Shown here in pieces: positions 7,273-22,244 of a stretch of DNA of 64,000 nucleotides (the first letter of the stretch is position 1; every line of letters starts with the position of its first letter). The notes under the pieces are model-generated. The model saw only the letters and a list, made by a program, of their open reading frames with translations. It ran no database searches and was not told the DNA's origin. Source of the DNA: Flavobacterium lacus (GTDB taxonomy: Bacteria > Bacteroidota > Bacteroidia > Flavobacteriales > Flavobacteriaceae); the NCBI RefSeq assembly GCF_003268815.1, contig NZ_QLSV01000004.1:186001-250000 (forward strand), written 5' to 3'. A program made the translations under genes and the position numbers.

Positions 7273-7304
7273 TTTGAATTGAATTTATTTCTTCCTTACC
7301 TTTA
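7273..7304 (+). promoter_or_regulatory. possible Bacteroidetes-type promoter
   Basis: TTTG at 7273-7276, then 20 bp, then TACCTTTA at 7297-7304 (consensus TAnnTTTG with the last G replaced by A). The predicted start would leave a very short leader before the ATG at 7319. Confidence 0.35.
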
Positions 7305-7318
7305 CCAAAAGATTTTTT

Positions 7319-7858: not shown

Positions 7859-7869
7859 TTTTATCTAAA

Positions 7870-9165
7870 ATGCTGAGAACAGTAAAAGTTTTTGCTTTAG
7901 AAAATCCTGAAGTCTTCAAACAAAAGTTGTTGGTTTGGTCTAATCAATTTCGAGAAGTAGTTTTTTTAGATAGCAACAATTATCAACAGAACTATTCCAA
8001 TTATGATGTTGTTTTGGCAGTTGAAGCTTTTACATCTATTAAAACCGATTCTTTTAACGCTTTTGAAGATCTACATCAATACCAAACGCATACCAAAGAC
8101 TGGTTGTTTGGCTATTTGTCGTATGATTTAAAAAACGATACCGAAGCGTTAAATTCTAACAATTTTGACGGTTTAGCATTCCCTGATTTATATTTCTTTC
8201 AACCTAAAAAGCTATTTTTTTTAAAAGATAACGAAGTTGAGCTGCAGTACTTGAGACTTTGTGATGATGAAATGGATAATGATTTTATGGAAATAAATTA
8301 TATTCAAAACTTACAACCTATAACTTACAACCTACAACCTATTCCTATCCAGCAACGTATTTCAAAAGAAGATTATCTTCAAAAAGTATCAAAAATGCTC
8401 GAACACATTCATCATGGCGACATTTATGAAGCGAATTTTTGTATGGAATTTTTTGCCAAAGATGCCACAATTAATCCGATAGAAATTTACCAAAAGCTCA
8501 ACGCCATTTCGCAACCTCCTTTTGCTGTTTTTTTTAAAAATAATTATCAGTTTTTACTTTCTGCTTCTCCGGAACGCTATTTAAAAAAAGAAGGAACAAA
8601 AGTTATTTCGCAACCCATCAAAGGAACAGCTCGACGTGTTTTTGATAGTGAATTAGACGAACAATCCAAAGCCGACTTAGCTGTAAATCCGAAAGAGCGT
8701 GCCGAAAATATTATGATTGTTGATTTGGTGCGTAATGATTTGTCCAAAACAGCTGCAAAAGGTGCTGTTGCGGTGGAAGAGTTGTGTCAAGTTTATACGT
8801 TCAAACAAGTGCATCAACTGATTTCTACGGTAGTTTCGCAAGTAGAAAATACGACTGCTCCAGTTGAAATTATCAAAACTACTTTTCCGATGGGTAGCAT
8901 GACCGGTGCTCCCAAAATTTCTGCCATGAAAATTATCGAAGAATTGGAAGAAACCAAACGAGGATTATACAGTGGAGCTATCGGCTATATTTCTCCGGAA
9001 GGCGATTTCGATTTCAATGTTGTGATTCGCAGTATTTTGTACAATTCAAAAAATCAATATTTGTCTTTTTCTGTGGGAAGTGCCATCACTTCCGAAGCCA
9101 CTCCCGAAGGCGAATATGAAGAATGTTTATTGAAAGCGAAGGCAATGTTTGAAGTGTTGAATTAG
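7870..9165 (+). CDS. pabB: aminodeoxychorismate synthase component I (chorismate-binding)
   Basis: A 431-residue chorismate-binding enzyme of the TrpE/PabB group. Visible motifs are SPERYLKKEG, PIKGTARR, a VDLVRNDLS segment and the FPMGSMTGAPK signature followed by RGLYSGAIGYI. The lysine of PIKGT (K251) is the residue that in PabB forms the covalent intermediate, whereas anthranilate and isochorismate synthases have another residue there, so 4-amino-4-deoxychorismate synthesis for folate is the best call. The glutaminase partner PabA is not in the window. Residues ~146-159 (NLQPITYNLQPI region) are encoded by a 7-bp tandem repeat at 8306-8347 and look like an insertion in the variable N-terminal half. 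Confidence 0.9.
   Translation: MLRTVKVFALENPEVFKQKLLVWSNQFREVVFLDSNNYQQNYSNYDVVLAVEAFTSIKTDSFNAFEDLHQYQTHTKDWLFGYLSYDLKNDTEALNSNNFDGLAFPDLYFFQPKKLFFLKDNEVELQYLRLCDDEMDNDFMEINYIQNLQPITYNLQPIPIQQRISKEDYLQKVSKMLEHIHHGDIYEANFCMEFFAKDATINPIEIYQKLNAISQPPFAVFFKNNYQFLLSASPERYLKKEGTKVISQPIKGTARRVFDSELDEQSKADLAVNPKERAENIMIVDLVRNDLSKTAAKGAVAVEELCQVYTFKQVHQLISTVVSQVENTTAPVEIIKTTFPMGSMTGAPKISAMKIIEELEETKRGLYSGAIGYISPEGDFDFNVVIRSILYNSKNQYLSFSVGSAITSEATPEGEYEECLLKAKAMFEVLN
8306..8347 (+). repeat. heptamer tandem repeat inside pabB
   Basis: Five or six consecutive 7-mers: AAAACTT, ACAACCT, ATAACTT, ACAACCT, ACAACCT, ATTCCTA. Because 7 is not a multiple of 3, repeat number changes would shift frame unless they come in threes. 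It encodes a Gln/Pro/Asn-rich loop. Confidence 0.75.
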
Positions 9166-9213
9166 TTTTTGTGTTCATTATTCCATTCTCACAAAATTCC
9201 TTACTTTTGAAAA

Positions 9214-10518
9214 ATGCTTTTGAAATTCAAAAACCACATTTTATTTCATTTTCCTTTTCTTCAAAAGGCGAAAATTCTCATCGCGGTTAGTGGTGGTTTG
9301 GATAGTATGGTTTTACTCCACTTAATTGCCCAATTAAATTTAGAGTTTGCTGTAGCTCATTGCAATTTTCAACTTCGCAAAGATGAAAGTGATGAGGACG
9401 AAGATTTTGTAAAATCCTATTGTAAAGAAAATTCTATTCAAGGTTTTTTTCAAAAATTTAATACGAATCAATTTTCCGAAGATGAAAAAGTATCGATTCA
9501 AGTCGCTGCCAGAAAGTTGCGTTACGAATGGTTTTATGAATTGTTAGCTACTGAAAATTATGATTTTGTGCTAACAGCTCACCATTTAGACGATCAATTA
9601 GAAACATTTTTAATCAATTTTTCTCGTGGAACAGGTTTGGATGGGTTATGCGGAATTCCATCACAAAACGATAAAATTATCCGACCATTATTAATTTTTT
9701 CTAGAGACGAAATTACAACGTTTGCTAACGAGAATAAGCTGAAATGGCGAGATGATTCGAGTAATGCCTCCGATACATATCTGCGAAATAAAATTCGTCA
9801 TCACGTTGTTCCAATTTTGAAAGAATTAAATCCGAGTTTTTTAAATTCTTTTGAAAACACCATTCAACATCTCAATCAAGCTCAAAGTTTAGTGGATGAT
9901 GCTTCGCGAATTGTGTATCGGAAAGTAGTGCAAGATGTTGATAATCAAAAGATAATCGATTTAAACGAATTACTTCAATTACCCAATTATCAAGCGTATT
10001 TATTTCAATGGTTATCGCCTTTCGGATTTTTGGCTTGGCAAGATATTTATGATTTGGTGGAAGCCCAATCCGGAAAACAAATTTTTTCGGAGCATTTCAG
10101 ATTAGTTAAAGATAGAGAAACACTGATTATTGAAACAAGATCTGATAAAATTTCCGACGAATATTTTATTCATAAAAACCAATCGGAACTTAATTTTCCC
10201 TTAAAGTTGACGTTTTGTAACGTAAGTGACATTACTATATCTAATTCAAAAACTATCTTTGTTGATGTATATGCGTTAAAGTTTCCTTTAAAACTTCGAA
10301 AATGGCAAGAAGGTGATTATTTTTACCCTTTTGGAATGAGCGGAAAAAAGAAGTTAAGTAAATTTTTTAAAGACGAAAAATTTTCCATCATTGATAAAGA
10401 AAATGCTTGGCTATTATGCTCTGAAAATCAAATTATTTGGCTCGTTGGGAAACGCTTAGACGACCGATTTAAAGTAACCGAAAACACACAAACTATCATA
10501 AAAATTCAATTAGTATAA
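9214..10518 (+). CDS. tilS: tRNA(Ile)-lysidine synthetase
   Basis: A 434-residue PP-loop ATPase. The ATP-binding motif SGGLDS is at residues 26-31, followed by the family's THHLDDQ-like loop (AHHLDDQLETFLINFSRGTGLDGL). The C-terminal substrate-binding domain is present (LRKWQEGDYFYPFGMSGKKKLSKFFKD). The enzyme lysidinylates C34 of tRNA(Ile) with CAU anticodon so that it reads AUA and accepts isoleucine; it is essential in nearly all bacteria. A TACTTTTG element at 9202-9209 lies just before the ATG. The stop codon overlaps the dsbD start by one base (TAATG), so the two are translationally coupled. Confidence 0.96.
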   Translation: MLLKFKNHILFHFPFLQKAKILIAVSGGLDSMVLLHLIAQLNLEFAVAHCNFQLRKDESDEDEDFVKSYCKENSIQGFFQKFNTNQFSEDEKVSIQVAARKLRYEWFYELLATENYDFVLTAHHLDDQLETFLINFSRGTGLDGLCGIPSQNDKIIRPLLIFSRDEITTFANENKLKWRDDSSNASDTYLRNKIRHHVVPILKELNPSFLNSFENTIQHLNQAQSLVDDASRIVYRKVVQDVDNQKIIDLNELLQLPNYQAYLFQWLSPFGFLAWQDIYDLVEAQSGKQIFSEHFRLVKDRETLIIETRSDKISDEYFIHKNQSELNFPLKLTFCNVSDITISNSKTIFVDVYALKFPLKLRKWQEGDYFYPFGMSGKKKLSKFFKDEKFSIIDKENAWLLCSENQIIWLVGKRLDDRFKVTENTQTIIKIQLV

Positions 10519-12521
10519 TGAAGAATTTATTTTTTACACTACTTTCCTTTTTTGTAATTTCCATTGCGCAAGCACAAATTTTAGATCCGGTTAAATGGAA
10601 AACATCCATTGAACAAAAATCCGACACCGAATTTCTATTAAAATTTGATGCAACTATTCAAAAAGATTGGCATATTTTTTCACAATTTACGCCGGATGGT
10701 GGTTCATTGCCATCGGTTTTCATTTATGAAGATTCTAAAAATAATTACCAACTAATTGGCAAAACAACAGAAAGTAAATACAAAAAAGTTTACAGTGATG
10801 TTTTTGAAGTAGATGAGTATATGTTTGAAAATTCAGCTCAATTTCAGCAATTGGTAAAAGTGACAAATCCAGCCTTAAAATCAATAAAAGTTGAGGTGGA
10901 ATACCAAGCTTGTTTGGAACAATGTATTCAGCAATTTAAGAATTTTGAATTTCTATTGCCGTTAAAAGAAGGTGCTGCTGTGGAAGGAAATATTCTAGAG
11001 ATGAATGATTCTTTAAATGCCGACTCTCGCTTAATTGTGAAAGATGAAGGGGCTCCAATGTCTGAATTGATTAATCCAAAACAGCAAAAACAAGAGGAAA
11101 AGAAAGGACTTTGGACGATTTTTATCATCGCTTTCTTCTCTGGATTTGCAGCATTGTTGACGCCTTGCGTGTTTCCGATGATTCCAATGACCGTAAGTTA
11201 TTTTACCAAACAAAGTAAAGACAGAGCTAAAGGAATTAAAAATGCCATTATTTATGGTCTTTCCATCATTATAATTTATGTAACATTAGGTTCAGCAATT
11301 ACAGCAATTTTTGGGGCAGATTCTCTGAACGAATTGTCAACCAGTGTTGCTTTTAATGTCATTTTCTTTGCATTATTAATTTTCTTCGCAGCTTCATTTT
11401 TAGGAGCTTTTGAAATTGTTTTGCCTAATTCTTGGGCTAATAAAGTAGACCGTCAAGCGGATAGAGGAGGAATTATCGGTATCTTTTTTATGGCATTGGC
11501 TTTAGCCATTGTTTCCTTTTCATGTACGGGTCCAATTGTGGGAACATTGATTGTTGAAGCTGCCTCCAAAGGTGGAATTGCTCCGATTGTTGGTATGTTA
11601 GGGTTTTCATCAGCTATCGCTTTACCTTTTATGTTGTTCGCTTTATTTCCGGGATGGATGAATTCCTTGCCAAAATCAGGCGGATGGTTAAATACAGTAA
11701 AAGTTTCACTTGGATTTTTAGAATTGGCTTTTGCGTTCAAATTTTTATCCAATGCCGATTTAGTTTTACAATTACACTGGTTTGAAAGAGAAACCTTTTT
11801 AGCGATTTGGATAGCCGTTTTTGGCGTATGGGCGTTGTACTTATTTGGAAAGATTTCGTTGCCACACGACAGTCCGTCGCCGCATATTTCCGTTGGGCGA
11901 TTGTTCGTGGGATTGTTTGTGTTGAGTTTTACAATTTATATGATTCCCGGACTTTGGGGAGCACCGTTGAAAATAATTTCCGGTTTTCCGCCGCCGTTGA
12001 ATTACAGCGAGAGTCCAAATGGAGTTGGTGGGAACGGATCCACATCAGAATTAGGAGCTTTGCCAAAAGGAGCTCATTTCGGACCGCACGGAATTGTTGC
12101 TTTTCACGAATATGAAGACGGTTTAGCTTATGCCAAACAAATAGACAAACCCATTTTACTTGACTTTACAGGATATGCTTGTGTGAATTGCCGTAAAATG
12201 GAAGATTATGTTTGGTCTGATACAAAAATTCTTTCTATACTAAAAAATGACGTGGTTTTAATTTCATTATATGTAGATGACAAAAAGGAATTAGCCGAAG
12301 ATGAGAAGTATGTTTCTAAAGAAACCGGCAAAAAAATAAAAACAATTGGTAATAAATGGAGTGATTTTCAAATCACGAAATACAAATCTAATGCTCAGCC
12401 GTATTATTTGATTTTGGATACGGATGGAAATACCATTTCAGATGAACCGGCAAGTTATGACCCTGACATCAATTTATATGAAAAATGGTTACGAAACGGA
12501 ATTGACAAGTTTGTAAAATAA
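10518..12521 (+). CDS. dsbD: thiol:disulfide interchange protein DsbD-like
   Basis: A 667-residue inner-membrane electron carrier that moves reducing power from cytoplasmic thioredoxin to periplasmic thiol proteins. A signal peptide (1-19) precedes a DsbD alpha-like periplasmic domain with a cysteine pair in ACLEQC (~131-136). An eight-helix CcdA/DsbD beta domain follows, with its two redox cysteines in TPCVFPM (~218) and SFSCTGP (~336). Last comes a periplasmic thioredoxin-like domain with CVNC (~554-557). All three redox pairs are therefore present. A proline/glycine-rich linker (~495-520) precedes the last domain. The start overlaps the tilS stop by one base. It is followed immediately by a strong bidirectional terminator. 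Confidence 0.94.
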   Translation: MKNLFFTLLSFFVISIAQAQILDPVKWKTSIEQKSDTEFLLKFDATIQKDWHIFSQFTPDGGSLPSVFIYEDSKNNYQLIGKTTESKYKKVYSDVFEVDEYMFENSAQFQQLVKVTNPALKSIKVEVEYQACLEQCIQQFKNFEFLLPLKEGAAVEGNILEMNDSLNADSRLIVKDEGAPMSELINPKQQKQEEKKGLWTIFIIAFFSGFAALLTPCVFPMIPMTVSYFTKQSKDRAKGIKNAIIYGLSIIIIYVTLGSAITAIFGADSLNELSTSVAFNVIFFALLIFFAASFLGAFEIVLPNSWANKVDRQADRGGIIGIFFMALALAIVSFSCTGPIVGTLIVEAASKGGIAPIVGMLGFSSAIALPFMLFALFPGWMNSLPKSGGWLNTVKVSLGFLELAFAFKFLSNADLVLQLHWFERETFLAIWIAVFGVWALYLFGKISLPHDSPSPHISVGRLFVGLFVLSFTIYMIPGLWGAPLKIISGFPPPLNYSESPNGVGGNGSTSELGALPKGAHFGPHGIVAFHEYEDGLAYAKQIDKPILLDFTGYACVNCRKMEDYVWSDTKILSILKNDVVLISLYVDDKKELAEDEKYVSKETGKKIKTIGNKWSDFQITKYKSNAQPYYLILDTDGNTISDEPASYDPDINLYEKWLRNGIDKFVK

Positions 12522-12524
12522 CAG

Positions 12525-12550
12525 AAAGGAGCCTAAAAAGCTCCTTTTTT
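12525..12550. terminator. bidirectional terminator between dsbD and the racemase cluster
   Basis: Stem AAAGGAGC (12525-12532) / GCTCCTTT (12540-12547) with a 7-nt loop, flanked by a T-run on the plus side and A residues on the left. It serves dsbD and probably also the convergent minus-strand cluster that ends at 12550. Confidence 0.85.
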
Positions 12551-13623
12551 TATACCACAAATTTTTCAATATAATCGGAGCTTAATAAATGCAATGCGCC
12601 CATGTATTTCAGTTTAAATGAAATTAAATCGCCAACGTTATAGTTGTTTTCAGAATTGGTAATATCAACCACCAACATATCTGAACTAGCATCTACAATC
12701 GTGATGTTTTCATCTTCAACTTCCAAATATTGTGGTTGCATGTCCAACAAACCAATGTCTAAAATCGCTCGAAGTGATGTTCCACTTAAATCATCAATAT
12801 TTGCAATTGAAAAGGAATTTCCGGCTACATTTTCGCCTAATTCACCATCGGGAACATTTGGTTTTTGAGTAATTTCGATGATTTCGGCATACAATTTAAA
12901 AACATCATTATGCATATTTTCAATGGTTTCACCGGTAAATAAATCTTTCCCAAAAAACAATGCTTCGCCTATTCTAAAATGATTTACTGCCATCGGTCTG
13001 GCATTCTTTAAAATCAATGGAATTGCTACCGAAGTTCCACCCGAAACCCAAGGAATCTGAACATTGAATTTGGCTTCAATCAATTGTTTATACAAACTCA
13101 ACTGAATCAATTTGTCCTGCGTCGGCATGACACCACTTAAACAATTTAGATTGGTTCCAATACCGCGGACTTCAATGTTTGGTTGCTCTAAAACTTCGCC
13201 GTAAAATTGGATTAGTTCTTCGCCCATCACACCTTCACGCAAATCACCCATTTCGATCATGATGATGATTTTATGGATTTTATTTTGTTTGGAAGCTTCT
13301 TCCGAAAGCAATTTGATGGTATAGATTTCGGTATTAAAACTTACATCGGCAAATTCAACAATTCGTTTAATACTTAATTTTGCCGGCGGTTTGATGTAAA
13401 CGGTTTGGATTGAAGGATTTAGTTTTTTAATTTTCTTTAAATTACTAATTCTCGAATCGTGAATTTCGGTTGTTCCCAAAGCAATTAATTCTTTCAAATA
13501 AATTATATTTCCACATAATAATTTGGAAACAACACCCCATTCGATATTTCTGGTTTTGAATAAATCATCTAAAAAATGATAGTTTTCTTGCAGTTTTGTT
13601 CGATATAATTTGATAAATGCCAT
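12550..13623 (-). CDS. ornithine-racemase-like PLP enzyme (alanine racemase N-domain family)
   Basis: A 357-residue fold-type III PLP protein. The PLP lysine is K34 in GVVSKLLCGN, and the IIMIEMGDLREG strand and SGGTSVAIPLI segment match the branch that includes clostridial ornithine racemase (Orr) and YhfX-like proteins rather than true alanine racemases. It probably interconverts L- and D- forms of a basic or modified amino acid; the substrate is not shown by sequence. It is the last gene of a four-gene minus-strand cluster: its ATG shares one base with the stop of the alanine-racemase gene upstream. Finding two different PLP racemases fused into one translation unit is unusual. Confidence 0.82.
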   Translation of the reverse strand: MAFIKLYRTKLQENYHFLDDLFKTRNIEWGVVSKLLCGNIIYLKELIALGTTEIHDSRISNLKKIKKLNPSIQTVYIKPPAKLSIKRIVEFADVSFNTEIYTIKLLSEEASKQNKIHKIIIMIEMGDLREGVMGEELIQFYGEVLEQPNIEVRGIGTNLNCLSGVMPTQDKLIQLSLYKQLIEAKFNVQIPWVSGGTSVAIPLILKNARPMAVNHFRIGEALFFGKDLFTGETIENMHNDVFKLYAEIIEITQKPNVPDGELGENVAGNSFSIANIDDLSGTSLRAILDIGLLDMQPQYLEVEDENITIVDASSDMLVVDITNSENNYNVGDLISFKLKYMGALHLLSSDYIEKFVV

Positions 13624-14774
13624 TATTTTAAAGTTTTTCTAGGAATTGATTTTGAAATTCGTGTGAGTAATTCATAATTTAATTGATTACTGTTTTCGCT
13701 AAACGAAGCCACAGAAACATCCATTTTTTCTTGGCTTCCAATCAGGATTACTTCATCACCAATTTGTATTGTTGGTATATCTGAAACATCCACTAGCATC
13801 ATATTCATGTTCACCGTACCAACCACCATACATCGATGTTGATTGATGATAACTCGACCTTTATTGCTAAGCGAACGACTGTAACCGTGAGCATAACCAA
13901 TGGGAATCGTGGCAATTTTCATTTTTTCTTTCGCCATAAAACTCGTTCCGTAACCAATGAATTCGCAAGCATCAATTTTTTTGATACTCATCACCTGACT
14001 TTTCCAAGATATTACTCTTTTTAACGGATCAATTTTTTTCTTTTTGGAAGAAATATAACTGGCAAAAACTTCCGGACTTGGCCATAATCCATATTGCATA
14101 ATTCCGATGCGAACCATATCCATTCTCGTTTCAGGAAACATAATTGAAGCGGCTGAACAAGCAGAATGTTTTATTTTCGGGATTAAATTACTTACACAGA
14201 AATAAGCATATATTTTTTCAAATCGTTCAATTTGTTGTTTTACTCTAAAGTAGTTTGACATACTTTCAGCTCCCGCAAAATGCGTACATAATCCTTTAAA
14301 TTCGATATGATTTTCTTCTTTTTTTAGTAAAGAAATTAAGCTGTTTAATTCATTTTGAACAAAACCGGTTCGATTCATTCCGGTCTCCACTTCAATGTGA
14401 ATAATCGCTTTTTTTTCTAGTTTTTTACTGATTTTAAGAGCCAGTTCTAATCGTTTTTTTTCAAAAATAAAGAATTCTATATCATTTTGAATGACCCATT
14501 CCATCAGTTCATCTGTAACAAATCCCATAATTAAAATGGTGACTTTTCTGGGAAGTTGTTTTTTGACCAATTGAGCTTCGGCGACATCAAACACAGAAAA
14601 ATGAGCAACGCCGCTTTTGTTTGCCATTGTTACAAATTCTTCGATGCCATGACCGTATGCATTTCCTTTTACGACTGAAGATAAAATTACGTTTTTACCG
14701 TACATTTTCTTTAGAAAAAGTAAGTTATTCCGATAGGAATCTGAATTAAGTTCGATGATGGAATTAGTATGCAT
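13623..14774 (-). CDS. alanine racemase family protein
   Basis: A 383-residue fold-type III PLP enzyme. The Schiff-base lysine is K36 in SSVVKGNAYGHG, the catalytic tyrosine is expected in the GYGTSF motif (~residue 270), and the MNMMLVDVS segment matches the dimer-interface strand of alanine racemases. A normal-length stand-alone Alr would supply D-alanine for peptidoglycan. In many Bacteroidetes, however, the housekeeping enzyme is a MurF-Alr fusion, so this one may be a second, specialised racemase. It overlaps the M20 gene upstream by 11 bp and the ornithine-racemase-like gene downstream by 1 bp. I leave the symbol empty because substrate specificity is uncertain. Confidence 0.85.
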   Translation of the reverse strand: MHTNSIIELNSDSYRNNLLFLKKMYGKNVILSSVVKGNAYGHGIEEFVTMANKSGVAHFSVFDVAEAQLVKKQLPRKVTILIMGFVTDELMEWVIQNDIEFFIFEKKRLELALKISKKLEKKAIIHIEVETGMNRTGFVQNELNSLISLLKKEENHIEFKGLCTHFAGAESMSNYFRVKQQIERFEKIYAYFCVSNLIPKIKHSACSAASIMFPETRMDMVRIGIMQYGLWPSPEVFASYISSKKKKIDPLKRVISWKSQVMSIKKIDACEFIGYGTSFMAKEKMKIATIPIGYAHGYSRSLSNKGRVIINQHRCMVVGTVNMNMMLVDVSDIPTIQIGDEVILIGSQEKMDVSVASFSENSNQLNYELLTRISKSIPRKTLK

Positions 14775-15918
14775 GATTGATTTCCTTACTAATTTGATGG
14801 AATAATTTTATGCCGGTTAAGATAATTTCATCCGGAAAATCGTAATCGGAATGATGCAAAGCAGGTGTTTCTTGTCCTGCTCCTAGTCCAAACATGGCTC
14901 CGGGATAATGTTGTGTGAACAATCCAAAATCTTCGCCCCAACTAAACGGAGTATCTTTTTCAACTACATCTAAAACTAAAATTTTTGAAGCATTTTTAAT
15001 ATAGTGATTGGCTTCTGAATTATTTTCATTGGCATGAAACGAGTCTGTCCATTTTATTTTAAATTCCAATTGGTTGATTTTTGCAATTTCTTCCGTCAAA
15101 TTTTCCAATTCTTTCGAAAGCCTTTCCATTTCATCATTGGTTTGACAACGAATAGTAAAATGTACTTCGCCTTTTCCGGCAGAAACGCCGTAGGCTTTTT
15201 GACCAAAAGAACTGTAAACAGGCGTAATTACCGCGAAGTCTTTTTTTGATTTATTATACTGATTTTTTAAATCAAATTGCTGAATCATTGTGGCGATTGC
15301 CATCGCTGGATTGATTCCGTTTTCAGGTTCGGCAGCGTGTGCAACTTTTCCTTTCAACCGAATAATTATACTTTTTACGGCACATGAAAATGTACCATCT
15401 TTCACTACAATTTGATTTTTTGCAAATTCGGGTAAATTGTGCAAGGCAAAAACATAATCGAGTTTTAGTACTTTGAATTTTTCATCGTAAGCCACTTTTT
15501 TGGCACCGGAACCATTTTCTTCAGCAGGTTGAAACAATATGACTACGTTTCCTTTTTCCGGTTGCTGATGATATAATTCACTTGCCAATCCGCACAAAAT
15601 AGCCATATGGCCATCGTGTCCGCATTTATGTGAAATAGTATTTTTTATCGATTTATGTTCAAATGAATTGGTTTCTTTAATGGGCAATGCATCCAGTTCG
15701 CATCGAAATAAAATTGATTTTCCTTCTTCAGCTCCTTTGTAGATGGCAATAATTCCTGTTCCACCAACATTTGTTTGCATTTCATCCGGTGGATATTGTT
15801 CTAAAAAGGAAATAATTCGTTTGGCTGTTTCAGTTTCTTTGCCTGATAATTCAGGGTTTTTATGTAATTCTTTTCGAAGACGAATGAGTGATTCCAGTCG
15901 ATTGTTTAAATTTTCCAT
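14764..15918 (-). CDS. M20D family amidohydrolase (amino-acid deacylase-like)
   Basis: A 384-residue cytoplasmic metal-dependent amidohydrolase of the M20D (hippuricase / IAA-amino acid hydrolase) group. Metal ligands are visible in KCGHDGH (C99, H101, with H104 nearby) and PAEENGSGAKK (two Glu near 134-135), with a later His in the RCQTND/HHSDYDFP regions and an AHAAEP motif in the dimerisation domain. The family removes acyl groups from N-acyl amino acids or dipeptides. In this cluster, between an acetyltransferase and two racemases, a role in deacylating an N-acyl amino acid is a reasonable inference. The gap to the upstream acetyltransferase stop is only 5 bp. Confidence 0.87.
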   Translation of the reverse strand: MENLNNRLESLIRLRKELHKNPELSGKETETAKRIISFLEQYPPDEMQTNVGGTGIIAIYKGAEEGKSILFRCELDALPIKETNSFEHKSIKNTISHKCGHDGHMAILCGLASELYHQQPEKGNVVILFQPAEENGSGAKKVAYDEKFKVLKLDYVFALHNLPEFAKNQIVVKDGTFSCAVKSIIIRLKGKVAHAAEPENGINPAMAIATMIQQFDLKNQYNKSKKDFAVITPVYSSFGQKAYGVSAGKGEVHFTIRCQTNDEMERLSKELENLTEEIAKINQLEFKIKWTDSFHANENNSEANHYIKNASKILVLDVVEKDTPFSWGEDFGLFTQHYPGAMFGLGAGQETPALHHSDYDFPDEIILTGIKLFHQISKEINHAY

Positions 15919-15923
15919 ACCGA

Positions 15924-16358
15924 TTATTTAGTCAACCTCATTTCTAAATATTTGTTGGTAAAACCTAACTTTTTGTACAAATGAAAAGCTGGATTATCGG
16001 GTTCAACATGAAGAGCGATAGAACCTGTAGTAGAATCAATTGCTTTTTGCATGAGTTTTTTGCCATAGCCTTTTCCGCGTTGTGAATTATCCACTGCGAT
16101 GTAAACCAAAATATTTTCTGGGATGTAATCTTTCATGCCGGTATTGTTGAGAATCACCACACCAACGATTTTATCTTCATCGGTTCCAACGATAATTGTT
16201 CCACCTTTGGAGGGAGTCATCACATAATCGATGCATTTTAAAATAGCTGCGGTTTTATCGCCATATTGTTCTAAATGAGTGAACAAAAATTCAGCAATAA
16301 CAGTTGGTGAATAAGTTGAATGCGTTCCGGTTTGAGTGGTAATTAAATTAAATTCCAT
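15924..16358 (-). CDS. GNAT family N-acetyltransferase
   Basis: A 144-residue single-domain GNAT acetyltransferase. The acetyl-CoA pyrophosphate loop QRGKGYGKKLM (~residue 94) and the C-terminal NPAFHLYKKLGF segment are both intact. It is the first gene of the four-gene cluster and lies 5 bp before the amidohydrolase. The substrate is unknown; context suggests an amino acid or small peptide amine. No close -7 element is seen directly upstream; a TACCTTTG element on this strand lies 215 bp away at 16573-16580. Confidence 0.85.
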   Translation of the reverse strand: MEFNLITTQTGTHSTYSPTVIAEFLFTHLEQYGDKTAAILKCIDYVMTPSKGGTIIVGTDEDKIVGVVILNNTGMKDYIPENILVYIAVDNSQRGKGYGKKLMQKAIDSTTGSIALHVEPDNPAFHLYKKLGFTNKYLEMRLTK

Positions 16359-16594
16359 AATTCATTTTTATAAAAATAGCAAAGCCATTACGCTTTTTCT
16401 CTTTTTGCTAAATTTGATTATTTATGCCGTATTTGGGATTTTCCCTTGGCAAATGAACAGTAAACTGTTTCTTGATTTTAAGAAGATTTCGCTAAATGGA
16501 AATCAAAAATTTGGATTAGTAGAATGAAAAAAAATTCAAGAAGGTAAACCAAACAAATCAATTTGATGAGTGCAAAGGTACAAAATAAAAAATT

Positions 16595-16626
16595 AAAGCC
16601 TTTTGCGGCAGATTGCAAGAGGCTTT
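16595..16626 (-). terminator. intrinsic terminator of the GAF histidine kinase gene
   Basis: A 12-bp stem (AAAGCCTTTTGC / GCAAGAGGCTTT, one G-T wobble) with an 8-nt loop. Read on the minus strand it is followed by a T-rich stretch, matching the end of the kinase gene at 16654. Confidence 0.8.
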
Positions 16627-16653
16627 TATACTAGCTAAAACGGATTAACTTGT

Positions 16654-17859
16654 TTATTTTTTAAAATATAATTTAAAGGAAGAACCAAGGCCAATTTCTG
16701 ATTCTAATTCTATTCTTCCATCTAATTTCTGAACCATATTCTGAACAGTTGAAAGCCCGATTCCGGTTCCGTTATTATTAAAACGATCTCTTTTTCCTAA
16801 TGTAGTAAAGAATGAAAAAACTTTTTCATAATCAGTTTTTGCAATTCCGATTCCGTTATCTTTTATTGAAAGTAAAATTTCTGTTGGTAAATCAATCAAT
16901 TCAATTTCAACTTTCACCTTTTCTTTATCGTTATATTTGATGCTGTTGCTAATTAAATTTGATAGAATTTGTTCTATTGCCATTTTATTAGAATGAAAAG
17001 AAAGAGAACTGTTTTTGGGAAAAATAATATCATATTCATTTTTAGAATCGAGTATAGAAATTATTTTGTTAAACAAACTATTCCAGTCAATTGCTTCTTT
17101 TTCGGTTGTATTAATTGTATCACTTTTATAATAGACCAAAATGGCATCCACAAAATTTTTCAATTCCAACGATGCTTTTGAAATGTATTCTAAATATTCG
17201 TTTCCGGCATCATCTATCTGTTTTCCATATTCATCTTGAAACAAATGTGTTAACGATATAATATTGTTTAAAGGTGATTTAATATCATGCGAAACCACTC
17301 TGGCAAATTGCTCTAATTCATTATATTTTGACAATAAACCGGCATTATTTTTTTCTAAAAGTTCATTCTTTTTTCGAAGTTCTAATAATTGAATAACTTG
17401 GTTTGCTAATTTTTCTAACGCACTTAGCTGAAAATGGGTTAGTTTTTTTGGTTCAGTATCATATACACAGAGGCTTCCCAGTGTATGTCCGTTTGGATCA
17501 ATAAGTAGAACACCGGCATAAAATGAAATTTTCGGATTACCAACAACATATCGATTATTTGCAAAATAATAATGTTCATTCATATTTTGAATTTCAATGG
17601 ATTTCAAACCATTATCCATCATGTATGTACAAAAAGCATCTTGTCGAGGGACATCAATATTGTCGAAACCTATTTTTGACTTAAACCATTGTCTGTCAAT
17701 GTCCATTAAGGTTACGGCAGAAATAGGAACTTGACAAATTTGTGAAGCTAATTCAGCCAAGTCATCAAAATCTTTCTCGGGTTGTGTCTCTAAGATGGAA
17801 TAGCTTTTCAAGGCCGCTACCCGCAGATTTTCATCTGCTTGTAAAGTTTGTTCATTCAT
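16654..17859 (-). CDS. GAF-domain sensor histidine kinase (soluble)
   Basis: A 401-residue kinase without transmembrane segments. The N-terminal half is a GAF domain of the kind found in many Flavobacterial two-component proteins (LETQPEKDFDDLAELASQIC, FKSKIGF, DAFCTYMM). After a short helix comes the phosphoacceptor motif VVSHDIKSPLNNI, then an ATPase with N-box (QILSNLISNSIKY), DNGIGIA and GTGIGLSTVQ motifs, all intact. It should sense a cytoplasmic small molecule or redox state. No response regulator gene adjoins it, so the partner is elsewhere. It is monocistronic, with its own terminator. Confidence 0.92.
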   Translation of the reverse strand: MNEQTLQADENLRVAALKSYSILETQPEKDFDDLAELASQICQVPISAVTLMDIDRQWFKSKIGFDNIDVPRQDAFCTYMMDNGLKSIEIQNMNEHYYFANNRYVVGNPKISFYAGVLLIDPNGHTLGSLCVYDTEPKKLTHFQLSALEKLANQVIQLLELRKKNELLEKNNAGLLSKYNELEQFARVVSHDIKSPLNNIISLTHLFQDEYGKQIDDAGNEYLEYISKASLELKNFVDAILVYYKSDTINTTEKEAIDWNSLFNKIISILDSKNEYDIIFPKNSSLSFHSNKMAIEQILSNLISNSIKYNDKEKVKVEIELIDLPTEILLSIKDNGIGIAKTDYEKVFSFFTTLGKRDRFNNNGTGIGLSTVQNMVQKLDGRIELESEIGLGSSFKLYFKK

Positions 17860-17926
17860 ATAGTGTGTTTTTTAAGTCTAATTGGTAGTACCATTTACGT
17901 AAAAACACAAGGTATGGTTTTAAAAA

Positions 17927-18658
17927 TTAATCAGAGGATGATTTTTTTCTTAAATCAAAATTATGGAAAACTAGAATTTGTAGGTTATGATTCATTCTGA
18001 ATGTGAAGTTAGTATTTGATTCAACCAGTTGATTCATATAAGCTATTTGAAAAGTCATTTTTTTTATTTGATAACCAATACCTAGCGAAATTCTATTTTG
18101 ATCCAGTCGGAAATTGTCTTTTATTTCTTGTCCGGCATTAAACAAAATCTCGTCGGATGCCATAAGATAGAATTTTCCTTTTTCTTGATTTTTAAAATAA
18201 TATCTCGCTTGCAGTAAATAACGAAAGCGATAATTGAAGTTAAATTCGTTTTGAAGATAATCGTCTACAATCAAACCTCTAAATCTGGCTTCGTAGCGAA
18301 GTCGGTGAAAAAAACGTATTGAATTAAATTGATGACTTAGCGTTGTTTGGCCCCAAGGCCGGTGTTCCGGTCTAAAAGTAGAACTTCCTTCAGGTGGATA
18401 AATCCAAGTATGACCATACCCTAGGGTTGATGTCATTTTATATTTTTCACCAAAATGATACGTTAATCCCGTACGAACAATCAAAAAGCTTTCGGGCACC
18501 CAATGCGTATCATTCCACCAAGAGAATGATTCTGAAAATTTTGATTCTGTGATATATCCAAGCCAAAGTTGTTGATTCTCAGTAATTTTATTTTGAGAAA
18601 ATGATGCTGTGATTGCCAAAAAAAGAGGTAAATAGATTGAAATTCTGAGAAATTTCAT
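17927..18658 (-). CDS. DUF2490 family outer-membrane beta-barrel-like protein
   Basis: A 243-residue exported protein with a signal peptide (about 1-21, ending in SFSQ). The rest alternates aromatic/hydrophobic and polar residues in amphipathic strands (FRPEHRPWGQ, YEARFRG, YLLQARYYF) as expected of DUF2490 proteins, which are probably outer-membrane barrels of unknown function. It ends with charged residues instead of a classical C-terminal Phe. It is transcribed divergently from yifB; a TAATTTTG element on the minus strand (18679-18686) may be its promoter. Confidence 0.8.
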   Translation of the reverse strand: MKFLRISIYLPLFLAITASFSQNKITENQQLWLGYITESKFSESFSWWNDTHWVPESFLIVRTGLTYHFGEKYKMTSTLGYGHTWIYPPEGSSTFRPEHRPWGQTTLSHQFNSIRFFHRLRYEARFRGLIVDDYLQNEFNFNYRFRYLLQARYYFKNQEKGKFYLMASDEILFNAGQEIKDNFRLDQNRISLGIGYQIKKMTFQIAYMNQLVESNTNFTFRMNHNLQILVFHNFDLRKKSSSD

Positions 18659-18738
18659 AACTGTTAAATAATTTTCCTCAAAATTACTTCATTTTTGAGA
18701 ATGAATTTGTGATATTTGTCATAATAAATTTATACGCC

Positions 18739-20274
18739 ATGTTAGTTAAAGTATTTGGAAGTGCCGTTTTCGGTGTTGAAGCCACCACTATTACCGTAGA
18801 AGTAAACATCGATAAAGGAGTGGGTTACCACTTGGTCGGACTGCCCGACAATGCCATCAAGGAAAGTAGCTACCGCATTGCTGCCGCCTTAAAGAATAAT
18901 GGGTATTCTTTACCGGTTAAAAAAATCACCATCAACATGGCTCCGGCCGATTTGCGAAAAGAAGGTTCTGCCTATGATTTAACATTGGCGGTAGGTATTT
19001 TGGTAGCTACTGGTCAAATAAAAGCAGAAGAGCTAAGTCAGTATGTGATTATGGGAGAACTTTCACTGGATGGAGGTCTGCAACCGATTAAAGGAGCTTT
19101 GTCTATTGCTATCAAAGCAAAAGAAGAAGGTTTTAAAGGATTTATCCTTCCCATTCATAATGTAAAAGAAGCGGCCATTGTGGAAGGTTTAGATGTGTAT
19201 GGAGTTGAAAATGTGCTACAAGTCATCGATTTTTTTGAAGGAAGAGGCGATTTACAACCAACACTCATTGATACACAAACTGAATTTTCTCGTACATTAG
19301 AATTTCCTGAATTTGATTTTTCTGATGTAAAAGGGCAGGAGGGAATCAAACGCTGCATGGAAATTGCCGCCTCTGGAGGTCATAATATCATTTTAATTGG
19401 TCCGCCCGGTTCAGGAAAAACGATGCTTGCTAAACGATTGCCAAGTATTTTACCACCGATGACCATGAAAGAGGCCTTAGAAACTACTAAAATTCATTCC
19501 GTTGCCGGTAAAACAAAAGAAGCCGGATTGATGAGTCAGCGACCGTTTCGGAGTCCGCATCACACAGCTTCAAGTGTTTCCTTAGTTGGCGGGGGAAGTT
19601 ATCCGCAGCCGGGTGAAATTTCGTTAGCTCATAACGGAGTTTTATTTCTGGATGAATTACCTGAATTTAAACGAGAAGTTTTGGAAGTGATGCGTCAACC
19701 CTTGGAAGATCGTGAAGTGACGATTTCACGGGCAAAGTTTACAATTACTTACCCTTCTTCATTTATGTTGGTGGCAAGTATGAACCCCAGTCCTGGTGGC
19801 TATTTTAATGACCCAAATGCTCCTGTCAGTTCTTCGCCGGCCGAAATGCAACGGTATTTGAGTAAAATTTCGGGTCCGCTTTTGGATAGAATTGATATTC
19901 ATATTGAAGTAAATCCCGTTCCGTTTGAAAAACTAACCGAAACCCGAAAAGCAGAAAGTAGTGTGGAAATCAGAAAGCGAGTGACACAAGCGAGAGAAAT
20001 TCAGTCGAAACGTTTTGAAAATTTTGACAATCTCCATTACAATGCCCAGATGGGAAGCAAACATATTCGTGAATATTGTGCGTTAGATGAGGCTTCGTTG
20101 AGTTTGCTTAAAACAGCAATGGAACGGTTGAATCTATCGGCTAGAGCTTATGACCGAATTTTGAAAGTAGCCAGAACCATTGCTGATTTGGAAGCTTTAG
20201 AAAACATCAAACCCAATCATATTGCCGAGGCGATTCAATATAGGAGTTTGGATCGAGAGGGTTGGCTGGGGTAA
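18739..20274 (+). CDS. yifB: YifB/ComM family Mg chelatase-like AAA+ ATPase
   Basis: A 511-residue AAA+ protein of the ComM/YifB family. In competent bacteria the homologue ComM is a hexameric helicase that promotes branch migration during DNA uptake. Order: N-terminal LonB-like S5 domain ([12 protein letters not shown] to ~170), AAA+ core with Walker [10 protein letters not shown], the [13 protein letters not shown] loop, Walker [10 protein letters not shown] and sensor MNPSPGGYF, and the C-terminal helical domain ([17 protein letters not shown]). I chose the ATG at 18739 (LVKVFGSA), since the longer frame opens with a GTG at 18709 and adds non-conserved residues. Competence itself cannot be judged from this window. 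Confidence 0.93.
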
Positions 20275-20326
20275 GCAAAAATCAATATCAATGTCAAAAA
20301 TCAATTGCAATAGCATAATCAATATT

Positions 20327-20370
20327 CTCTGTGCTTCAGCACTAACTTGTCTCCGACTTCAGTCGGAGGA
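20327..20370 (+). repeat. left inverted end of RAYT element (REP-like)
   Basis: A 44-bp segment that is an imperfect inverted copy of 20841-20884. It contains its own palindrome, CTCCGACTTCAGTCGGAG (20351-20368), and the shared blocks CTCTGTGC and CAGCACTAA. Confidence 0.8.
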
Positions 20371-20416
20371 TTAAAAAATCAAAATCATAATTATATTCCC
20401 TATTTAAAAAATATAC

Positions 20417-20851
20417 ATCCATTTTGTCTGGTGCACAAAAAACAGATATCCATTTTTAAGCACAATTGAATCGAGACAGTTGGTTTGGAATCATATTAAA
20501 GAAAATGCAAAACAAAAAGGAATTCATGTTGATTTTGTCAATGGTTATGAAGATCATTGCCATTGTTTAATTTCATTAGGAATAAATCAAAATGTTGAAA
20601 AAATTATGCAATTAATTAAAGGGGAATCTTCGTAATGGATTAATCAAAACCCTGATTTATTTCCGAATTTAAAAGGGAAAAAATTTGAATGGCAAAGTGA
20701 GTTTTTTGCATTATCAGTTTCTGAATCTATTCTGAAGCGAGTGCGAAATAATATCAAAAACCAAGAAAATCATCATCGGAAAAAATCATTTAATGAGGAG
20801 TTTGATAAGATAAAAGAGGTTTTTGAGAAAGGAGAAGTATCATCCGACTGA
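20417..20851 (+). pseudogene. decayed IS200-like / REP-associated tyrosine transposase (RAYT)
   Basis: One frame reads through an HUH-type transposase of the IS200/TnpA_REP group: IHFVWCTKNRYPFLSTIESR at the start, GYEDHCHCLISL with the HxH metal pair, IMQLIKGESS, then FALSVSES and NQENHHRKKSFNEEF at the end. It is broken in three ways. TAA at 20633-20635 interrupts the GESSxWIN motif. The frame is closed just upstream of 20417, where a one-base shift would restore an N-terminus. The tyrosine of the expected YIxNQ motif is Asn (AAT at 20750-20752). So it is inactive. It is flanked by inverted REP-like ends. Confidence 0.85.
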
Positions 20852-20884
20852 AGTCGGACGAAATTTAGTGCTGCCGCACAGAGA
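20841..20884 (+). repeat. right inverted end of RAYT element (REP-like)
   Basis: An imperfect reverse complement of 20327-20370. It holds the palindrome TCCGACTGAAGTCGGA (20843-20858) and the blocks TTAGTGCTG and GCACAGAG. The transposase frame ends inside this palindrome (TGA at 20849-20851). It lies 4 bp from the stop of the HMG-CoA synthase gene. Confidence 0.8.
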
Positions 20885-20888
20885 TGAT

Positions 20889-22244
20889 TTATTCAACAAA
20901 CTCATAATACCTCGCTCCAACCAAAACCGGATTTTCTTTTTCAATCGAAGCCAAGACAAATTCATTTTTTGGTTCTAAAACTGAATGTTGTAATTCTTTT
21001 TTATGTAATTTTTCATAGGTTTCAAAATCGATTGGATGATTATGTGCTAAGTCATCAAAAAGATTGATTTGATTGATAACTGTTTTCCAATTTTCACAAA
21101 CGGTAGCTTCAAACACTTTTGATTTCGATCCGCTTCCGTAAGCAATAAAGCCAACTTTTTTATTTTCTAAAGCAGTGTTTTGTTGAGCGTGGTAACATAA
21201 CGACGAGAGCAATCCGAGGAAGATGGAACCCGTATAAATATTTCCAATTTGGCCTGATGCAATTTCGGATGGATAAATTTTTTGGTTGATGAGTTCTACA
21301 TATTCTCCACTTTTGGTCAAAGCTTTTAATTTATCTTTTTCACTTTCGCCTATTTGATTGGCTAACAATTCCGGATTTTCATCGGCAAAGATTTCAATAA
21401 ATGTTCTTCTCCCTTGAAAACAGTAGGGGAGATGCATCAAAATGGAAGTCCAATTTTCATAGACTTTTCCGGTTTGCTGACTTTCTTTTTTAAAGTGATT
21501 ATAGGCTTCGGTGATTCGGTTGATGTAGCATTGGTTGGAATAATGTCCGTCAAAAACAGGTTGTTCTTTATAAACAGAAATTTCATTTTCTAACACACCA
21601 AACCATTCTTTATTTTCGGATGAATTTGTTATATCTGATTTGGAAAAAGTTCTTCTCGGTTTAAAAAAGTCAAAAACACCTTCTGTTGAAACGCCAACTT
21701 CACTAGAAAAACGCAATATTCTTGGATTAGAAGTAATTAACATCGCAATAGCACCGGCACCTTGTGTATATTCACCACCGGATTCCAAATCATATTTGGC
21801 ATTATCAGAAGCAATAACAATTGCTTTTTTGGTTGGGTTTAATCGAATATAATCTAAGCAATTTTGTAAGGCATCCACACCGCCAATGCATGCAAAAGTT
21901 AAATCTACTACATCACAATTTCTTAAAGAACTTTCGCCTAATTTGCTTTCTAGTAGAGATAAAACATAGGAGGCAATTGGTTTTGAACTATCTACACCAC
22001 TTTCTGAACCAATGTATATTCGAGCAATTTCGGCAGGATTAATGTTTTCTTGTTTAATCAATTTCAATCCCGCATTAGCAGCAAAAGTCACTACATCCTG
22101 ATGTTTGTCAGGAAAACTCATTTTGTGCAAACCCAACCCTTTAATCAGTTTGTCCGGTTCAATATTTCGCTTGAGTGCGAGGGTTGAAATGGGTAAATGT
22201 ATCTTAGGAATATCAAAGGAAATACTATCGATGCCAACGTTCAT
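20889..22244 (-). CDS. hydroxymethylglutaryl-CoA synthase
   Basis: A 451-residue thiolase-superfamily enzyme that condenses acetyl-CoA with acetoacetyl-CoA to HMG-CoA, the entry step of the mevalonate route to isoprenoids. With the start at 22244, the catalytic glutamate is E81 (GSESGVDSSKP) and the nucleophilic cysteine is C119 (LTFACIGGVDAL). A GSGSKSKVFE segment lies near the C-terminus. A longer frame begins with TTG at 22262, but a TAAATTTG promoter element overlaps that point, so the ATG at 22244 (NVGIDSISFDIPK) is preferred. The end of the gene abuts the RAYT element, which may have inserted right behind its stop codon. Confidence 0.92.
   Translation of the reverse strand: MNVGIDSISFDIPKIHLPISTLALKRNIEPDKLIKGLGLHKMSFPDKHQDVVTFAANAGLKLIKQENINPAEIARIYIGSESGVDSSKPIASYVLSLLESKLGESSLRNCDVVDLTFACIGGVDALQNCLDYIRLNPTKKAIVIASDNAKYDLESGGEYTQGAGAIAMLITSNPRILRFSSEVGVSTEGVFDFFKPRRTFSKSDITNSSENKEWFGVLENEISVYKEQPVFDGHYSNQCYINRITEAYNHFKKESQQTGKVYENWTSILMHLPYCFQGRRTFIEIFADENPELLANQIGESEKDKLKALTKSGEYVELINQKIYPSEIASGQIGNIYTGSIFLGLLSSLCYHAQQNTALENKKVGFIAYGSGSKSKVFEATVCENWKTVINQINLFDDLAHNHPIDFETYEKLHKKELQHSVLEPKNEFVLASIEKENPVLVGARYYEFVE

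Follow-up and report, generated by a model that had tools for sequence, protein, structure and literature searches.

A gene cluster of Flavobacterium lacus that pairs racemases with an acetyltransferase recurs in scattered Bacteroidota and points to an apparently undescribed handling of mirror-image amino acids

What brings an acetyltransferase, an amidohydrolase and two PLP-dependent racemases together in one tight bacterial gene unit? The question is raised by a 64,000-nucleotide stretch of Flavobacterium lacus DNA (contig NZ_QLSV01000004.1, positions 186,001 to 250,000), hereafter the window, in which four minus-strand open reading frames form a single unit in the order GNAT, M20D, ALR and ORR. 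An earlier note on this DNA had connected the four genes from their order and proposed that they could make or salvage a specific D-amino acid. The linkage is real, and it takes the form of a gene set that has been reshuffled and repeatedly trimmed. The cluster recurs in scattered relatives across the phylum and points to a way of handling mirror-image amino acids that is apparently undescribed.

The unit in the window

The spacing of the genes is exactly that given in the earlier note, with a 5-bp gap between GNAT and M20D, an 11-bp overlap of M20D with ALR and a 1-bp overlap of ALR with ORR. The features are the following.

16359-16653, minus strand: gap upstream of GNAT, the position of a symporter gene in relatives; no symporter remnant near the gap
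15924-16358, minus strand: GNAT-family N-acetyltransferase, 144 aa, first gene of the unit and core partner of ORR
14764-15918, minus strand: M20D metallo-amidohydrolase, 384 aa, accessory cassette
13623-14774, minus strand: ALR, alanine-racemase-family PLP enzyme, 383 aa, assigned to a distinct subfamily by its residues (invariant N-M-N), accessory cassette
12550-13623, minus strand: ORR, ornithine-racemase-like fold-type III PLP enzyme, 357 aa, core partner of GNAT
12525-12547, minus strand: terminator-like hairpin 3' of ORR at the end of the unit, 10 pairs with a T-rich tail, a consensus match only

Four terminator-like hairpins were found in the whole stretch, against 2.7 expected by chance. 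A scan for the Flavobacterium-type promoter pattern at one fixed spacing gave six matches in the window, none of them near the unit. Values of dN/dS between 0.04 and 0.13, calculated against the three nearest relatives, indicate that all four genes are under purifying selection. The neighbouring open reading frames of 90 aa or more, covered from 7870 to 22262, include DsbD-like and histidine-kinase proteins (by Pfam) and others that by eye resemble PabB, TilS, ComM and a synthase; neither an aminomutase nor a thiolase belonging to clostridial ornithine fermentation was recognised among them. A MurF-Alr fusion, for which the earlier note had advised a search, is encoded elsewhere in the same genome as an 814-aa open frame on contig 20.

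The four enzymes

The active-site motifs, previously described as intact, turn out to be invariant among the relatives aligned (20/20 for ALR and M20D, 46/46 for GNAT and ORR). Both racemases are Ala_racemase_N proteins according to Pfam. ORR is a full-length homologue of the Orr of the clostridial ornithine cluster (38 % identity, 131 of 346 alignment positions), but it scores only 322.8 bits on the Orr model NF040742, below the cut-off of 480 that the clostridial enzyme passes with 549.6. The genomic setting differs as well: clostridial ornithine fermentation is encoded by ord-ortA-ortB-oraS-oraE-orr, whereas the unit in the window is without aminomutase genes and the partners of ORR are GNAT, M20D and ALR, joined in relatives by a symporter. 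ORR matched no solved structure by sequence at E 0.001; its fold is that of alanine racemase (best Z 27.6 with 4luy, rmsd 3.1 over 325), and the invariant Lys34 is, by its motif, presumably the PLP lysine. ORR is ornithine-racemase-like and may act on an ornithine- or lysine-like diamino acid.

One possible outlet for such an activity is the salvage of D-ornithine. ORR would deliver L-ornithine, to be converted to glutamate by ornithine transaminase, or GNAT would acylate it for the arginine pathway, which in Bacteroidota runs via N-acyl-ornithine. In 10 of the 11 tested genomes of one family (f24), ORR does have an ornithine--oxo-acid transaminase 2.7-10.1 kb away, and the full-length enzyme scores 673.8 bits on TIGR01885 (cut-off 378.4). 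This neighbour, like the homology to Orr, also speaks for the substrate class suggested for ORR. However, it is a neighbour in this family only, it also stands beside a lysine transaminase in the three f24 genomes without ORR that were fetched (3/3), and no arginine gene was seen to recur next to the ORR cluster in the neighbourhoods of relatives. The association may simply be inherited synteny, and salvage appears unlikely. Lysine catabolism through L-lysine 6-transaminase was also considered as a general outlet and rejected, the presence of this enzyme not tracking ORR: it exceeds its cut-off in 0/49 genomes of the genus (26 with ORR), in 23/23 of family f24 (11 with and 12 without ORR), in 1/5 of f17 and in 0/3 of f8.

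ALR passes TIGR00492 with 293.7 bits (cut-off 168), and its invariant Lys36 and Tyr275 are taken to be the catalytic residues. Alanine racemases possess a conserved Asp/Asp/Arg network near PLP (PMC10288493, available text). With equivalent positions deduced from alignment to 4y2w and residue offsets, the 20 cluster sequences carry His (17), Gln (1), Tyr (1) or Ser (1) in place of the GYAD Asp and Asn throughout (20/20) in place of Asp313, while Arg is found at the Arg363 equivalent in only one; the MurF-Alr fusion of the same genome keeps all three network residues. To judge by these positions, ALR forms a subfamily of its own in which the active-site Asp/Arg network is altered. Its residues give an ambiguous picture of substrate size. 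ALR shares the Alr fold with the Bsr, Bar and Lyr racemases and has the Asn that is natural in the broad-specificity Bsrs (PMC10288493); however, it retains the two gate tyrosines typical of strict alanine racemases, including Tyr367 (20/20), the equivalent of the Tyr354 that is absent in Lyr and Bar (PMC3485190, available text).

The same Asn bears on the idea that the cluster detoxifies D-amino acids or analogues released by competitors, with GNAT acetylating the toxic compound and ALR acting as an analogue-tolerant alanine racemase. In a solved alanine racemase the corresponding Asp-to-Asn change lowers cycloserine affinity 240-fold, but a much smaller effect is predicted for other alanine racemases (both in the available part of PMC10288493), and its natural occurrence in Bsrs also speaks against a resistance trait. 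Moreover, GNAT-ORR is what stays constant in the cluster, and many loci do without ALR. We regard detoxification as very unlikely.

M20D scores 230.6 bits on TIGR01891 (cut-off 153.75), which places it in the family of YxeP, IAA-amino acid hydrolase, N-acyl-glutamine aminoacylase and DoeB2, and YxeP is its best match among solved structures. Its invariant Cys99, His101, Glu133, Glu134, His160 and His355 are presumably the metal ligands. Deacetylation in ectoine or diaminobutyrate metabolism was rejected as a role: on the DoeB2 model M20D reaches 195.4, far below the cut-off of 550, no ectoine genes were noticed beside it, and none recurs near the cluster by eye in the neighbourhoods of relatives. 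GNAT scores 52.5 bits on Acetyltransf_7 (cut-off 27) and carries an invariant Arg94-x-x-Gly97-x-Gly99, the acetyl-CoA motif of the family. Its AlphaFold2 model (pLDDT 94.6) has the GNAT fold (with RimI 2cnm, Z 16.6 and rmsd 1.8 over 125). Since RimI, Ard1, GCN5 and others fall within about 1.5 Z of one another among the 50 matches listed (Foldseek, VIA-align), the model resembles a wide range of GNATs and does not reveal a substrate. An M23-like gene seen in relatives resembles the middle of PRK06148, an APH-M23-aminotransferase protein; it prompted the idea of a hydroxylysine substrate, on which titles and openings of abstracts offered nothing useful.

A constant core and an accessory pair

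In a draw of 395 genomes from the phylum, GNAT is present in all 61 genomes with a strong ORR and occurs without ORR in a single genome (Fisher p 1.7e-71, a statistic that ignores relatedness). The two genes share contig and strand in 59/61 cases and lie within 164 bp of each other in 52/61. A second draw of 150 genomes from the genus likewise has GNAT in 38/38 ORR genomes. GNAT and ORR are a nearly inseparable two-gene core. Gene order varies among relatives and the set persists. Neighbourhoods were scanned at named loci from the best 80 of 279 relatives, 76 of the 80 loci exceeding 6 kb and 69 having at least 4.5 kb upstream of ORR, and at 53 wider loci. Genes at all loci were labelled by tblastn; the ORF caller misses genes lying under longer antisense frames. 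By this labelling GNAT is found at 47 of the 53 wider loci, the six without it (L218-L223) having distant ORRs, 32-36 % identical to the queries.

The accessory genes M20D and ALR form a pair whose presence tends to coincide with that of a sodium:solute symporter. The symporter gene lies upstream of GNAT at 45 of the 69 named loci taken from the best 80 of 279 relatives; the genome of the window is without it. Within the genus draw, 20 of the 150 genomes contain M20 (E <= 1e-60), and all of these are among the 38 with ORR. Cluster-type ALR was detected in 11 of 43 tested genomes of the genus, exactly the 11 of these that have M20, and the symporter in 10 of the 43, every one with ORR (0/14 without it).

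On a tree of 114 ORRs, with GNAT at all 114 loci, the minimum number of changes is 17 for the cassette and 16 for the symporter. Of 11 independent pairs, an average of 6.9 have the symporter following the cassette and 0.0 have it going against the cassette (median p 0.016, range 0.004-0.063). This quick tree scores a gene at the locus only and counts symporters of at least 40 % identity (L213, L215 and L224 carry one of 26-28 %); it omits L182, L186 and L214, which have too little flank, and the distant L218-L223, which have no GNAT, SSS, M20 or ALR. An earlier, equally quick tree of 112 loci, with 31 of 108 inner branches weak, gave 16 changes for the cassette and 17 for the symporter, the latter following in 6.6 pairs against 0.4 (median p 0.031). 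In favour of an accessory module, one genome has SSS-M20-ALR as a separate locus away from GNAT-ORR (L166); against it, two related loci (L198 and L199) have M20 without an adjoining ALR. M20 alone was rejected as a marker of the cluster, given that 21 of the 65 M20 genomes of the phylum draw are without a strong ORR and the family is wider than the cluster; the M20 loci were inspected in 15 of the 21, and in none of them does ALR lie beside M20.

The linkage first proposed from gene order is borne out by these counts. The four-gene set itself fared less evenly: its GNAT-ORR core is constant, but the full set is patchy, though not random, the M20-ALR pair comes and goes, and what is a unit of four in the window is in many relatives a longer one with the symporter upstream of GNAT. 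Such patchiness (M20 in only 20 of the 38 ORR genomes of the genus) and the breadth of the enzyme families might suggest loose neighbours that share a promoter or a lucky neighbourhood and perform unrelated reactions. However, the set is kept through rearrangement, dispersal and plasmid carriage, and the co-occurrence counts strongly disfavour this explanation, which is barely credible.

The reduced forms of the cluster lend themselves to a biosynthetic reading. GNAT and ORR stand alone at 18 of the 69 named loci (from the best 80 of 279 relatives) and at 21 of the 53 wider ones, and of the 29 ORR genomes tested within the genus, 15 are without both ALR and the symporter anywhere in the genome at the thresholds used. 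ORR would convert part of the internal L-pool to a D-amino acid, which GNAT would acetylate, drawing racemisation forward; the N-acetyl-D-amino acid would be kept or exported, with M20D and ALR recycling it. But the accessory transporter is of a symporter (uptake) family, and no recurring export, peptide synthetase or ligase gene was recognised beside the core, where most neighbours were judged by eye. Biosynthesis is in our opinion improbable, and it is similarly doubtful that the product, in that case, would be a protective solute or a cell-surface or signal component.

Proposed reactions and known systems

The earlier note had envisaged acylation, then racemisation, then deacylation. PLP racemases bind the free amino nitrogen of their substrate as an aldimine (PMC3485190, available text), and this order fails at the alpha-amine; acylation has to come after racemisation or take place at a different amine. 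The reading that we prefer is stereo-inversion, in which material supplied by uptake and amide cleavage would be racemised and GNAT would capture one of the products; as a whole it is a serious possibility that stops short of being probable. The symporter, absent from the lineage of the window, would import an amino acid derivative whose amide bond M20D would cut, and ALR would interconvert the enantiomers of the small amino acid set free. ORR would interconvert those of an ornithine- or lysine-like diamino acid, and N-acetylation of one enantiomer by GNAT would make a reversible racemisation run one way and remove an isomer that is toxic or of no use. Where the cluster has only two genes, the GNAT-ORR pair would work on an internal pool. 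The window may well represent a transporter-less form of a conserved stereo-inversion system of Bacteroidota, though we would not call this likely. Its lineage keeps M20-ALR under selection without a transporter and about half of the tested ORR genomes of the genus do without both ALR and symporter at the thresholds used, so uptake cannot be the whole story.

Among known systems, one that is close in logic is the DgcN pathway. It proceeds by acetylation, racemisation and deacetylation, and its racemase belongs to the enolase superfamily and takes N-acetyl amino acids. The dgcN gene is described as key to an irreversible racemisation of acidic D-amino acids and their amides (PMC12363236, available text). 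Both systems couple an N-acetyltransferase, specific to D-amino acids in the DgcN case, with a racemase. However, the acetyltransferase of the window is a GNAT by Pfam and fold, not a DUF1611 protein, and PLP racemases need a free amine, so that acetylation cannot precede racemisation at that amine. Elsewhere an Orr-like racemase, which at 394.9 scores above the window's ORR on the Orr model, adjoins a DUF1611/DgcN-like N-acetyltransferase; the pairing of racemase and N-acetyltransferase hence uses at least two acetyltransferase families. A Salmonella locus also resembles the cluster in having an Orr-like racemase (31 % identical to ORR), a second protein annotated as alanine racemase, presumably a D-ornithine/D-lysine decarboxylase, and transporters. 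It differs in that no GNAT or M20D is annotated and its two permeases are of another family. No description of the cluster was found in the titles and abstract openings of the open-licence PMC literature. An ornithine racemase has been assigned to a Flavobacteriales strain by automatic KEGG annotation, with no cluster mentioned in the available part of the paper (PMC12838360).

Taken at its broadest, the cluster could be an undescribed module, spread over the phylum, where a dedicated GNAT acetylates one diamino-acid enantiomer and so turns PLP racemisation into a one-way reaction, with an optional uptake-and-cleavage module that includes a new alanine-racemase subfamily. Such a module would yield or consume N-acetyl-D-ornithine- or -lysine-like metabolites that have yet to be reported from these bacteria; we advance this tentatively and with considerable doubt. 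Just as tentative is the suggestion that it might constitute a PLP-based counterpart of the DgcN route.

To our knowledge, little is known about how Bacteroidota handle D-amino acids. These compounds are an important part of the slowly turned-over organic matter of the deep sea (PMC12363236, available text). With its acetyltransferase beside it in the gene content of 61 of 61 genomes, the racemase offers a precise and testable target, and the modular losses of the cluster provide natural knock-outs for comparison. The ALR subfamily, for its part, is a natural experiment on the active-site Asp/Arg network that has been discussed in connection with the substrate range of alanine racemases and their sensitivity to cycloserine.

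The gene unit and its predicted products

The four genes that the earlier note had placed in one tight minus-strand unit were re-found as open reading frames, with a single gap of 5 bp followed by overlaps of 11 and 1 bp, and a terminator-like hairpin at the end of the unit:

12550-16358, minus strand: genes of a GNAT acetyltransferase (GNAT), an M20D amidohydrolase (M20), an alanine-racemase-family protein (ALR) and an ornithine-racemase-like protein (ORR)

By profile matching the family assignment is firm for three of them, M20D scoring above the TIGR01891 cut-off, ALR above that of TIGR00492, and GNAT being assigned through Pfam. The sole NCBIfam match of ORR is the Orr model (322.8 vs a cut-off of 480). 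AlphaFold2 models of ORR and GNAT are both confident (pLDDT 92.5 and 94.6). ORR is predicted to fold like alanine racemases (best Z 27.6, with 4luy, rmsd 3.1 over 325), while the GNAT model superposes on RimI (Z 16.6, rmsd 1.8 over 125), many GNATs being almost as close. A clostridial Orr is 38% identical to ORR, and its neighbourhood, judged by open reading frames, resembles the ornithine fermentation cluster. In Acetoanaerobium noterae, one protein (L251 5035-6312) has a PALP-type PLP domain at its N terminus and a GNAT at its C terminus; the latter shares 37% identity with a portion of the GNAT encoded in the window.

In comparisons with the three closest relatives, dN/dS is 0.04-0.13 across all four genes, which are therefore under purifying selection. 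M20 (14764-15918) changes fastest, at about twice the rate of its neighbours, with 82-84% identity to L050-L052, the loci nearest to the window's, vs 90-96% for the other genes. Among the top 80 of 279 related loci, the closest named species is Flavobacterium orientale (ORR 92%).

A GNAT-ORR core and an accessory module

Co-occurrence of all four genes, which the earlier note had put up for comparison, held for GNAT and ORR, with M20 and ALR present in part of the genomes that carry this pair. In draws of genomes from the family, genus and phylum, ORR was matched in 15 of 149, 38 of 150 and 67 of 395 genomes, respectively, 61 of the last being strong matches (E <= 1e-75). GNAT was matched in 62 of the 395 phylum-draw genomes, namely all 61 with strong ORR and G369, which lacks ORR, and in none of the six with weaker ORR (Fisher p 1.7e-71, a descriptive value that ignores relatedness). 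The two genes share contig and strand in 59 of the 61 pairs and lie <=164 bp apart in 52; in the other seven same-contig pairs genes intervene, M20-ALR in five and something else in two. In the genus draw, GNAT (E <= 1e-15) is present in 41 of 150 genomes, including all 38 with ORR; it occurs without ORR in G160, G214 and G278. At the first two (loci L176 and L177) a lone GNAT sits between DsbD and ComM genes, and ORR was probably lost recently.

M20 (E <= 1e-60) is found in 20 of the 150 genus-draw genomes, every one within the 38 carrying ORR; in five of the 20 (L166-L170) the M20-ALR pair lies elsewhere in the genome, with a symporter alongside in one. Cluster-type ALR and the sodium:solute symporter seen at many relatives' loci were tested in 43 genus genomes, 29 with ORR and 14 without. 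The genomes with ALR number 11 and are precisely the ones that have M20; the symporter is present in 10, all ORR carriers (7/11 ALR genomes vs 3/18 other ORR genomes); 15 of the 29 have neither. This symporter belongs to the SSF family (PF00474, 185.7 bits), its TIGR00813 score being just below cut-off. No close relative was found in the window's genome (best 29%), nor any remnant upstream of its GNAT, and the gene is also absent from L050-L052 and from G274, the closest of the genus-draw genomes.

Named genomes were scanned at the protein level, and of 279 related loci the top 80 were used; 69 of these include >=4.5 kb upstream of ORR. A same-strand GNAT is present at every one of the 69: 43 add symporter, M20 and ALR, 6 add M20 and ALR but no symporter, 2 add the symporter alone, and 18 have GNAT-ORR only. 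A wider set of 53 loci, taken from other family and phylum genomes, has GNAT at 47, the remaining six being distant ORRs. All five genes are found at 14, symporter-GNAT-ORR at 8, GNAT-ORR only at 21, GNAT-M20-ALR-ORR at 1, and symporter, GNAT and M20 with no ALR seen in the locus at 3. At two of these three (L198, L199) no ALR was found beside M20; in L211, M20 sits at the edge of the fetched stretch.

Gene order varies among SSS-GNAT-M20-ALR-ORR (SSS, symporter), SSS-GNAT-ORR-(M23-like)-M20-ALR, M20-ALR-SSS-GNAT-ORR, GNAT-SSS-M20-ALR-ORR and GNAT-ORR-SSS-M20-ALR. An M23-peptidase-like gene (about 200 aa), similar to the central region of multi-domain protein PRK06148, lies inside or adjoins the cluster at 11 loci (L187-L194, L196, L199, L208); L120, L124 and L126 have a relative nearby, on the opposite strand. 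Directly upstream of the symporter at five loci of Fulvivirga species and a Flammeovirgaceae MAG (L120, L122, L124, L125, L128) is a MarR-type gene, whose product is a candidate regulator of the cluster. A Persicobacter sp. JZB09 plasmid (L256) carries all five genes as one cluster and, apart from it, a further GNAT-ORR pair (3394-8628 and 21349-23202); the system can thus travel on plasmids, and is present there in two copies.

A tree was built from 114 ORRs whose loci all contain GNAT; it requires a minimum of 17 changes for the ALR cassette and of 16 for the symporter. Across 11 independent pairs differing in the cassette, the symporter differed the same way in 6.9, the opposite way in 0.0 and not at all in 4.1 (averages; median p 0.016, range 0.004-0.063); a first version of the tree gave 6.6 with and 0.4 against (p 0.031). 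These paired changes are the grounds for distinguishing two modules: GNAT and ORR as the constant core, and M20, ALR and the symporter as an accessory set.

Racemases and substrate clues

The window's genome has four Ala_racemase_N matches. Two are the cluster's own ALR and ORR, and the others include the MurF-Alr fusion that the earlier note had suggested looking for:

Contig 20, 814-aa open frame: MurF-Alr fusion with an Ala_racemase_N match, outside the cluster
Window 56886-57539, 220-aa open frame: fourth Ala_racemase_N protein, probably a YggS-type PLP-binding protein

Given the fusion, the cluster ALR is, as judged from sequence, a second alanine racemase of the genome; it is 33% identical to the racemase part of MurF-Alr. 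With numbering from alignment to 4y2w plus residue offsets, the Geobacillus Asp313 position is Asn in 20/20 aligned cluster ALRs, the GYAD Asp position is His in 17/20 and Asp in none, and Arg occupies the Arg363 position in 1/20; all 20 retain the gate tyrosines (equivalents of Tyr265 and Tyr354). MurF-Alr of the same genome retains Asp, Asp and Arg. The Arg309-type arginine is missing from both proteins, so its absence is not special to the cluster ALR. A study of a variant mycobacterial Alr describes the Asp/Asp/Arg network, reports 240-fold weaker cycloserine binding upon an Asp-to-Asn change within it, and gives Asn there as natural to broad-specificity racemases (PMC10288493). Since the gate tyrosines are kept alongside this Asn, the cluster ALR combines strict-Alr with broad-specificity marks.

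In one family (f24), 10 of the 11 tested genomes have an ornithine--oxo-acid transaminase gene at a distance of 2.7-10.1 kb from ORR; six loci were assigned by sequence clustering, one of them confirmed above the TIGR01885 cut-off, as were four further transaminases. It adjoins L-lysine 6-transaminase in all three fetched f24 genomes without ORR, so the transaminase block is either older than the ORR cluster or unconnected with it. A link between L-lysine 6-transaminase and ORR was rejected, as the enzyme exceeds its cut-off in 0/49 genus genomes (26 with ORR) and in 23/23 f24 genomes (ORR present in 11, absent from 12).

At five Bacteroidota loci of other lineages, the gene of an Orr-like racemase (32-36% identical) has a DUF1611 N-acetyltransferase gene in its vicinity, whose product is DgcN-related (164.9 bits vs a cut-off of 480 for the one protein tested); on a Vibrio plasmid, such a racemase adjoins a DUF1611 protein. 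Such distant racemases near DUF1611 (DgcN-like) genes occur in L219-L223 and L252 (5766-8104), and a VanX-like dipeptidase adjoins them in L219-L223. Together, the transaminase neighbour and the racemase/N-acetyltransferase pairings point, short of proof, to a basic amino acid and to racemisation being functionally coupled with acetylation.

A proposed feed-racemise-trap scheme

The earlier note had ordered the steps as acylation, racemisation and deacylation. PLP racemases bind the free amino nitrogen (PMC3485190); an N-alpha-acyl amino acid is therefore not their substrate, and we replace that order by a feed-racemise-trap scheme. It builds on genes, motifs, co-occurrence and modularity, which are directly established. 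As to the substrates, direction and role that we infer for each step, uptake and amide cleavage by M20D would supply free amino acids, ORR and ALR would interconvert the enantiomers, and GNAT would trap one of them. All four enzymes belong to known families, and searches of open-licence full-text literature, judged by title and abstract start, returned no publication on this gene cluster. What these enzymes would form, with no description found in that open-licence literature, is a system built on a conserved core that couples racemisation and acetylation of D-amino acids.
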